DNA from: Alphaproteobacteria bacterium
GTDB taxonomy: Bacteria > Pseudomonadota > Alphaproteobacteria > Micropepsales > Micropepsaceae
Assembly (NCBI GenBank): GCA_947467345.1
Contig: CANIHD010000021.1
Span: 1-46,530, forward strand
Direction of reading: 5' to 3'
DNA: 46,530 nucleotides
Made by a program: the position numbers and the translations under genes. The notes under the pieces are model-generated. The model had not been told where the DNA came from and made no database searches. It saw only the letters and a program-made list of their open reading frames with translations. Every line of letters starts with the position of its first letter. Position 1 is the stretch's first letter. Shown one piece after another: positions 10,267 through 13,065 of this stretch.

Positions 10267-10358
10267 ATGACATTGACCAGCATATCGGGAACCGAGCGAA
10301 TTTATTACGGGTGGTTTGTGCTCGCTGCCACGGCGGCGATGGAGATCATCGGCACGGG
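10267..10358 (+). pseudogene. Second MFS transporter, N-terminal fragment only
   Basis: ATG 10267 (after AGGGTG) opens MTLTSISGTERIYYGWFVLA followed by ATAAMEIIGTGA, the typical first 30 residues of a monocarboxylate-type MFS permease (YYGW at the start of helix 1). After about 10358 the frame runs through the antisense of the LysR gene and stops at 10467. Everything from the middle of helix 1 onward is missing. The approximate end given here is the inferred junction, not a stop codon. Confidence 0.7.
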
Positions 10359-10874
10359 CGCGGTCGGCCGCGTAATTTGGATGGCCAGATCGGCTTCCAT
10401 CCGGAGCACGTGCGCTGATTTCATGGCGCAATTGACGTCGACCAGAAGGCCGGGATTGGCGCGTTGAAAATCGACCAGTTTGGGCGCGATCCAGAACGTC
10501 ACGATGCCCTCGGTCACTGCCAAGCGAACTTCGCCTGTCAGTTTTTCCTCGCCCTGGTCCTTGGCCTGAAGAATTCCGAAAGAGGCCGCCTCCATCCGCG
10601 TGGCGGCCGCGACGACATGATCACCCTCGGCGGTGGTTCGCACGCCATCCACATGACGTGTCAGCAGCGCGGCCCCGAGGTCGCGCTCTAGCTCCGCCAC
10701 GCGTCGGCGAAGGGCATTTACGGATTGGCCAAGATGGTCGGCGGCGGCACGAAAACAGCCCTTTCGGACGATCTCCAAGAATATCCGAACTGCTTCCCAA
10801 TCGGGAACGACCCGCTTCTCCCCGTGGAGTGCCCGTTCCCCGAAAAGAACACCCCGTTCGTCCCTAGTTTGCAT
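10305..10874 (-). pseudogene. LysR-family regulator, C-terminal half lost
   Basis: 189 codons against the usual 290-310. The N-terminal winged helix is intact (DWEAVRIFLEIVRKGCFRAA ... SVNALRRRVAELERDLG), followed by the linker and the first half of the ligand-binding domain up to EADLAIQITRPTAP. The last 16 residues (VPMISIAAVAASTNHP) are simply the antisense of the MFS fragment, so native sequence ends about 10358. Without the second half of the effector domain it probably cannot respond to inducer, though a DNA-binding fragment could still be made. It may once have regulated a nearby transporter; that is inference. Confidence 0.8.
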
Positions 10875-10931: not shown

Positions 10932-12148
10932 ATGACTGAGTATCCTTTACGGATGGTCCGCCACGATGGCGGATCGACCCCTGGCGAAGCGCGGCATCAA
11001 CTTGACCGTCTCGATTCCAGTAGAGTTTCAAAGCACTTAACGCTATTCCGCCCGACCGAAACCGAGCTGGGTAATGTCCTAGATCGCGCGCGTGAACGCA
11101 TCCCCAGATTAACCGATACGCGAACCGTTCTCGGCGTCGTTCGACACAATCGGGACTGTTTTTGGGCCATTTCCCGGCGTGGAAATGATTCGGTCGGCGA
11201 AGGCTTCATCGCCATGCTTCCGCTCAATGAGCGGGGGCTGAAGCAATTGGCCGCTGGCACCCTCAGGCGCAACCGGATGTGGCGCTGCTCGCCGTCCCGG
11301 GTGAGCGCCCTGCCGGCATCTATATCTGGGCGACCTTCGCCCCCGGTCGACTGGCCGGCGGCATCGCTCTGTTCATGGATCAGATCGCCAAGGCGCCCTA
11401 TGACGGCGTGAACATGTACACCCGCCCCAACACCGAAGTCGGGCACCGTTTCAATGAATCGCTCGGGTTGAAAAAGGGCGCCAAGATCGGGCCCGTATTC
11501 AACGACAATCTCTATGTTTTCACGCGCGCGCCCAAGCCCGTGCCGCTTTACGACAGCTACCGTCGCGAAGGACCGAAGAACGGCATTACCGTTACCGTCG
11601 CCCGCACCATCGACGATTTCTTGCGCGTAACCTCCATTCGCAGCGCGGTTTACATCGCCGAGCAAGAATGCCCTTACGAGGAAGAATTCGACGGCAATAA
11701 TTTTTCCGCGACCCACCTTCTGGGCTTTGTGAACGGAGAACCGGCGGGATGCCTGCGCATTCGTTTCTTTGCCGATTTCGCAAAGATCGAACGCCTCGCG
11801 GTGCGCAAAGAATTCCGCCACACACGGCTATCCTTCCAGATCGTTCGCGCCGGCTTCGAGCTGTGCAAAATGAAGGGATATCGCCGGATATATGGCCATT
11901 CGCAGAAGCGGCTGGTGAATTTCTGGAGCCGCTTCGGCTTTCGCGTGTGTGAGGGGCGCCCAGAATTCAGCTTCTCCGATTTCGACTATGTTGAAATCGT
12001 GGCGGATGTGGAACGCCATCCCAACGCCGTGACGATTGGCGCGGATCCCTATGTCATCATTCGTCCCGAGGGCCGCTGGCACGAACCGGGGATTCTTGAA
12101 GGATCGTCGAGCCGCGGCGTCTCACGCCCATCGGTCGCGGCGGGTTAA
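10932..12148 (+). pseudogene. Tandem-GNAT acyltransferase gene with a one-base frameshift
   Basis: Two reading frames join into one protein. From 10932 the frame reads to ...EGFIAMLPLNERGLKQLAAGT near 11264. The continuation (PQAQPDVALLAVPGERPAGIYIWATF, cut for length) lies in another frame that runs to 12148. One extra base in the CCC run at about 11261-11264 would restore a protein of about 405 residues. The first domain (through SLGLKKGAKIGP) looks like a GNAT fold. The second (CLRIRFFADFAKIERLAVRK ... RIYGHSQKRLVNFWSRFGFR) is a clear GNAT acetyl/acyltransferase. It could be a real pseudogene, a sequencing error or programmed frameshifting; no slippery site is obvious. It is convergent with the LuxI-type gene, 29 bases apart. 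Confidence 0.75.
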
Positions 12149-12177: not shown

Positions 12178-12786
12178 TCAGTACAAGCTGACGGCAACGG
12201 GAATGCCGTATTCGGCGCCGCCCATATACGTCGTCAGCAGCACGGCGCGTGACACCTCGACCGCGACAGCCAAGCGGACGCGGTCGTGTTGCGCGACCGG
12301 CAAGCCAAGCGGCGTCACCGACCAGCCGCGCTCAAGCAGGGTCGGCAGGAACTCGATATCGCAGAAAAGTGTCAGGTTCGCCTGACCGCGCTGAAGCCCG
12401 TAATCGAACATTGCGCAGAACAAATGTCCGTAACGTTCGCGCCCCTCGGATTCGTCTTCATCATCCAATGCGATCCAATGCGACATCTCATAGATCTTCG
12501 AATGGAGGTGCGTCGTGTCGGCAATGGCAAATGAAAATCTGTCTCTGAGCAAATCGACCTCTAGGGTCGGAACCAAGCGTAAAGCTGCAACGACACTCCG
12601 GCTGCTATCCGTCTCAACGACATAGACCACGTCGTCTGCTTCGCCTTGATCGACGCAATTAACCGACAGGCGCGACGCGACATCACTAGTCGCAACGCGC
12701 CCGGCCACCATCTGCCGGTGCTGAAAGAATTGTTCGAGCTGATCGGCAAAGATCGCGCGATTTGTTCGGTCGACAACGAAGATCAT
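12178..12786 (-). CDS. Autoinducer (acyl-homoserine-lactone) synthase-like, LuxI type, divergent
   Basis: 202 residues, the usual LuxI length and layout. The alignment by eye is good: HR at 23-24, VDQGEADDVVYVVE where active enzymes have DxxDAxYLL, AALRLVPT (the LRLLPT motif with its Arg), LLRDRFSF, YEMSHW (usually EMSR/EISR), then LPTLLERGWSVTPLGLPV, as in AHL synthases. Several residues normally invariant differ: the N-terminal Phe and Trp appear lost, the second Asp is Glu, and the Arg after EMS is His. Active members make acyl-homoserine lactones from S-adenosylmethionine and acyl-ACP or acyl-CoA. Given the substitutions this one may use other substrates or be inactive. No LuxR-type regulator is in the window. 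The fold is GNAT-related, like its convergent neighbour. Confidence 0.68.
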   Translation of the reverse strand: MIFVVDRTNRAIFADQLEQFFQHRQMVAGRVATSDVASRLSVNCVDQGEADDVVYVVETDSSRSVVAALRLVPTLEVDLLRDRFSFAIADTTHLHSKIYEMSHWIALDDEDESEGRERYGHLFCAMFDYGLQRGQANLTLFCDIEFLPTLLERGWSVTPLGLPVAQHDRVRLAVAVEVSRAVLLTTYMGGAEYGIPVAVSLY

Positions 12787-12945
12787 TAGAACTCGGTGGC
12801 CAAATGCGGCGGGACATTAGCCCACGAAGTTTGTTGCGAAAATTGAGCAGAATACTGCACGTTAACGATAAGAGTGTTCCACCAGTGCAACGCTCGGCCT
12901 CAGTTAACCTACTCAGCGGCGTGCAAGCTTCACCCCGAAAAGCAC

Positions 12946-12977
12946 AAAACCCCTGCCGGTTAACCGACAGAGGTTTT
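12946..12977 (-). terminator. Intrinsic terminator of the HU gene
   Basis: AAAACCCCTG (12946-12955) and CAGAGGTTTT (12968-12977) flank an inner palindrome CGGTTAACCG. On the minus strand the stem is followed by GGTTTTGTGC, as for an intrinsic terminator about 90 bases after the HU stop codon. It isolates HU from the downstream LuxI-type gene. The gap 12787-13065 holds nothing else I can support. Confidence 0.6.
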
Positions 12978-13065
12978 GATACCTATTTATTTCACCCGTC
13001 TCCGCGTTAGCCGCGAAATGCGGTTTGACGAGACGTGCGTCCGATTCGACCCTGGGCGGGTTAAA

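Follow-up and report, generated by a model that had tools for sequence, protein, structure and literature searches.

The divergent LuxI-family gene at 12178..12786 (minus strand) of the window, the whole 46.5-kb stretch of DNA analysed, probably encodes a protein that has ceased to make AHL, a relic left over from a quorum-sensing pair that has come apart; this reading, drawn from sequence comparison, is given a probability of about one half. Its 202-residue product has the predicted AHL synthase fold and keeps R24, D46, R70 and E100, while positions 28, 34, 49 and 103 carry alanine, serine, glutamate and histidine. If it is a relic, a quorum-sensing circuit has been caught mid-dismantling, with receptor and synthase apart, a stop codon in one and the SAM site erased in the other. 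The gene is the sole LuxI of its genome (G000; 2.49 Mb, 25 contigs, 96% complete), which is smaller than the genomes of LuxI- or LuxR-bearing congeners.

Membership of the LuxI family is supported by sequence and by predicted structure. The reading frame starts at an ATG aligned with the start of its relatives, and its product scores 30.1 bits against Pfam PF00765 (Autoind_synth; cut-off 24, E 4e-7). Among solved synthases it matches RpaI (E 3e-17), BjaI (E 1e-11) and MesI (E 6e-10), so that the Pfam match and the RpaI and BjaI matches together place membership far above chance. The motifs LRLVPT, LLRDRF and PLGLPV are present and, with these matches, bear out the LuxI pattern (LRLVPT, LLxxxF, PLGLPV) on which the original prediction was built. 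If the gene is a relic, a match to the Pfam LuxI profile above its cut-off does not amount to AHL production, which calls for caution in annotation.

An AlphaFold2 model built with 17 relatives reached a pLDDT of 83 and a pTM of 0.80, and its eleven top structural matches are all AHL synthases. VIA-align Z scores to AHL synthases range from 15 to 21.9, compared with at most 14 for other GNAT folds, the highest being that to RpaI (21.9 over 195 residues). The structure prediction proposed as a check thus returned an AHL synthase fold with its best scores, about 21, to RpaI, MesI and BjaI, and on this model the product is a LuxI-family protein closest to the RpaI/BjaI/MesI group. These acyl-CoA-dependent enzymes (PDB 6wn0, 5w8a and 6wns) superimpose with Z of 20.6-21.9 over 190-195 residues at an rmsd of 2.5-2.8 Å, sharing R24, D46, R70, E100 and the PLGLP motif. 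Unlike them, and at 21-26% identity, the query lacks F28, W34, D49, R103, most of the SAM loop and a linked luxR.

The maximum-likelihood tree groups the query with the LuxIs of G003, G063 and G065, all from its own bacterial family, with clade supports of 98/89, 99/88 and 100/95. At 2.08, its end branch is the longest in the tree (the nearest sisters have 0.55 and 0.85), and because of this length its exact position is unsure. The nearest LuxI, both by sequence (32%) and in the tree, is that of the genus-mate G003. By sequence, the gene is a rapidly changed native LuxI of the family rather than a distant GNAT; the original prediction had named clustering outside the autoinducer synthase family as the outcome that would overturn it, and by tree and fold the protein clusters inside. 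No close relative was found in genome_contigs when the query was searched alone, nor in viral_contigs, and phage protein families gave no match.

Residues of the LuxI active site are extensively altered. R103, D49 and the other invariant residues serve SAM binding and acylation, as established by mutagenesis of LuxI and RhlI and by the structures of EsaI, LasI and others, and we know of no AHL synthase that works without the residues lost here. The classical positions R24, F28, W34, D45, D48, R69, E97 and R100 correspond to 24, 28, 34, 46, 49, 70, 100 and 103 in this protein. Ten invariant LuxI positions are listed in one account (PMC5281573) and eight in another (PMC7862692); four of the eight are kept here and four are lost, through the substitutions F28 to Ala, W34 to Ser, D49 to Glu and R103 to His. 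The replacement of the arginine after EMS by histidine and the alteration of the N-terminal Phe and Trp had both been noticed in the original prediction and hold, to which D49 to Glu and the loss of most of the loop 28-48, neither named there, are now added.

In an alignment of 108 relatives, 33 of them fetched by whole-protein search and the remainder by motif, the query deviates at 17 of the 31 columns conserved at 80% or more. At columns conserved at 95% or more it deviates at 8 of 15, the runner-up among the relatives deviating at 3 of 15. R103 and D49 are invariant in the aligned relatives (108/108 each), and the 33 from the whole-protein search, which are free of motif bias, agree (33/33 for both). 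As a further check against that bias, homologues were sampled class-wide with the Pfam profile, the weakest matches included: Asp49 was present in all and Arg103 in all except one shortened homologue, which carries lysine. Codon 103 of the query (CAT, His; 12478..12480, minus strand) therefore departs from an arginine found in 108/108 aligned relatives and in nearly all distant homologues sampled. Neither H103 nor E49 was seen in any other LuxI examined, and among the sequences sampled no relative shares the altered residues. For a full-length sole LuxI with R100 and D48 replaced, no precedent appeared in the literature searched or in this limited set of sequences, and uniqueness is not claimed.

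Loss is clearest in the N-terminal SAM-binding loop, as indicated by a drop in identity and a collapse in model confidence over the same region. Its equivalent, codons 21-53 (12628..12726, minus strand), is scrambled. Identity to the G003 sister LuxI is 55% over residues 1-20, 18% over 21-53, 33% over 54-108, 33% over 109-135 and 31% over 136-180, compared with 55, 61, 53, 48 and 31% between the two nearest normal sisters, so that over residues 1-20 and 136-180 the query is as close to its sister as normal sisters are to one another. Where both sisters have the same residue, the query retains it at 4 of 20 sites within 21-53 and at 38 of 74 elsewhere (p 0.02), a concentration that gave p 0.21 when the comparison was repeated with three sisters. 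Under the same 17-sequence alignment, pLDDT over residues 31-50 is 47-49 in the query versus 88-95 in the sister LuxI; outside the loop the predicted fold is confident.

No luxR gene lies in the 46.5-kb window, and in this respect the predicted absence of a LuxR partner stands; it does not extend to the genome, where one autoinducer-binding LuxR-type gene, the sole one of G000, lies on another contig (C4:75850-76580; 1441-2169 of locus L018) with an in-frame TAA. The TAA is codon 69, four codons past the conserved ligand-pocket Trp, and the G003 gene has Tyr at this position. The receptor groups with the luxI-linked LuxR of G003, its best match (support 96/96; 49% identity), and the solo LuxR of G002 groups with it as well. 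Its branch of about 0.5 reflects an ordinary rate, so that apart from the stop the gene looks intact, and the break is either recent or an error. G000 thus holds no functional LuxI/LuxR pair in the sense of a synthase with an intact cognate receptor, usually linked. Neither a luxI remnant beside luxR nor a luxR remnant beside luxI was found. Two short words, CGTTAACG and TGGAACACT (or its reverse complement), are shared by the regions upstream of luxI (12860-12881) and luxR (L019 8720-8786), each once in the window and with spacing that differs between the two genes; no claim of a shared regulatory site is made, since the comparison was by eye and such sharing is near chance level.

The genus-mate G003 retains the arrangement that G000 appears to have lost. 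Its luxR and luxI (L020 6651-7376 and 7464-8111) are linked, intact and canonical, with all canonical residues present, whereas in G000 the two genes are unlinked, the luxI eroded and the luxR interrupted by a stop codon. Among six other genomes of the genus, G003 alone has a LuxI match and the other five have none; one of these, G002 (99% complete), carries only the intact solo LuxR.

The surroundings of luxI are also damaged. A GNAT gene converges on it, as the original prediction stated, with 29 bases between the stop codons; rather than the tandem GNAT described there, it is a broken, frameshifted copy in which Pfam recognises a single GNAT domain. Its 5' part (10932..11266, plus strand, frame 3) matches residues 10-123 of the intact 424-aa G002 copy, its 3' part (11270..12148, plus strand, frame 2) carries the recognised domain, and the frameshift falls between about 11252 and 11270. 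Next to it lies a truncated LysR-type regulator gene (10305..10874, minus strand) of 189 aa versus about 351 aa, cut past the position matching residue 173 of 351, with homology to relatives stopping at 10356. In relatives, an intact GNAT gene of about 420 aa, found in many genomes and widespread in the bacterial family, adjoins a divergent LysR gene. The proposed survey of neighbours therefore turned up a conserved LysR-GNAT pair of which luxI is not part, and the implied functional pairing of luxI with GNAT was rejected: relatives pair the GNAT gene with LysR and have no luxI next to it, and here both members of that pair are broken. In G002, genes for an isochorismatase-family protein and a TPP enzyme adjoin the LysR-GNAT pair.

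On the other side, hupB, pabB and the genes that follow as far as 23.5 kb are intact and keep synteny with the congeners G002 and G004, neither of which has luxI or the GNAT gene at the corresponding place; rpoN is also among the intact, syntenic housekeeping genes next to the broken pair. This places luxI on the border of a rearranged region with broken accessory genes. Between hupB and luxI, a terminator-like hairpin followed by T-rich sequence (12945..12978, minus strand) is probably the end of the hupB transcript.

The original prediction had left three outcomes side by side: a non-standard signal, an acylated product, or inactivity. The last is favoured by the lost residues and loop, by the damage to the neighbouring genes and by the stop in luxR, a different acyl product being conceivable but less favoured. 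A plausible course begins with a native family LuxI that has lost its SAM-positioning and acylation residues and kept the GNAT-like fold and the acyl-thioester side. The luxR-luxI pair, linked in G003, would have become separated in G000, leaving luxR on another contig with a nonsense codon; the signal circuit may then have fallen into disuse, the SAM site of luxI would have lost constraint, and AHL would cease to be made. Against a relic stands the retention of R24, D46, R70 and E100. Against decay stand the frame, open over 202 codons, and the GC content by codon position (0.64/0.40/0.68), which is a normal coding signature. When neutral substitution was simulated with either sister as the starting point until the loss was as great, only 4-5% of runs stayed free of stops, indels not counted; the estimate is rough, using fixed base frequencies and the sisters in place of the ancestor. 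That the losses cluster in the SAM loop fits selective loss of one function better than uniform decay.

The same observations lend some weight to a second, tentative explanation, in which the LuxI-fold protein was repurposed, dropping SAM binding and keeping the acyl-thioester site, and now either transfers acyl groups to another amine or serves as a regulator without catalytic activity. The open frame, the coding signature and the low odds under pure decay are in its favour, as are the focus of the losses on the SAM loop, with residues 1-20 and 136-180 diverged as in normal sisters, and the confident predicted fold outside the loop. A precedent by analogy is TslI of Methylobacterium extorquens AM1, a truncated LuxI homologue that two other LuxI enzymes need in order to produce AHL (PMC2680597, PMC12502750). 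Both proteins are LuxI homologues and incomplete synthases; TslI is a truncated protein in control of two other luxI genes, whereas the query is full length, point-altered and the sole LuxI. A TslI-like role, the control of other LuxI synthases, accordingly finds no partner in G000, which has no second LuxI. The altered residues occur in no relative sampled, which leaves no conserved alternative active site to point to, and the adjacent genes are broken and show no conserved linkage to luxI. The more specific proposal that such a SAM-free protein has been maintained after loss of the pair, as an other-amine acyltransferase or a non-catalytic regulator, is somewhat more doubtful again; a kept protein of this kind would be a rare LuxI fold without SAM chemistry.

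Continued AHL synthesis at low or altered activity, with His103 and Glu49 replacing Arg and Asp and the loop folding differently, appears improbable from the sequence. In its favour, R24, D46, R70 and E100 are kept, histidine and glutamate are conservative in charge type, and the predicted fold is the same, nearest to the acyl-CoA-using RpaI/BjaI group. Functional solo LuxI enzymes also exist: AgpI of Archangium gephyra is a solo synthase that produces AHLs in E. coli (PMC7862692), and like the query it is a LuxI without a usable LuxR partner. AgpI, however, keeps all eight conserved residues, four of which are lost in the query. Among the residues lost are ones kept by every aligned relative, active or uncharacterised, the loop is modelled without confidence, and G000 has no intact receptor gene to use a signal.

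Errors of assembly or base calling in a metagenome-type contig are a very unlikely source of these unusual residues and gene breaks: the frameshift in GNAT and the stop in luxR are each single-base events, but more than 12 separately changed codons without a stop exceed random error, the LysR truncation is a rearrangement rather than a base error, and the intact syntenic housekeeping genes beside the broken LysR and GNAT genes argue against a generally poor assembly. A compensating pair of frameshifts was also considered for the odd loop and rejected, as the other two frames hold no LuxI motif.

Several LuxI genes in other genomes show features of their own. In G063, a canonical LuxI (L188 6678-7397) adjoins sugar-transferase genes of the exopolysaccharide type, with no LuxR recognised in the 14 kb of sequence covered, and is possibly a true solo LuxI. 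Paired luxI genes about 2.4 kb apart occur in G010 (L030), G091 (L038/L045), G104 (L042/L046) and G103 (L044/L047), and in G103 and G104 one luxI of each pair lacks W34 and F28 (L042, L047). The small genome G239 carries two shortened LuxI-like ORFs, L233 (on C47) and L234 (on C73), with the N-terminal loop largely missing, one of them having lysine at the R100 position. Like the query, they are without much of the N-terminal loop, but there it is shortened and here substituted, and D49 is kept in both.
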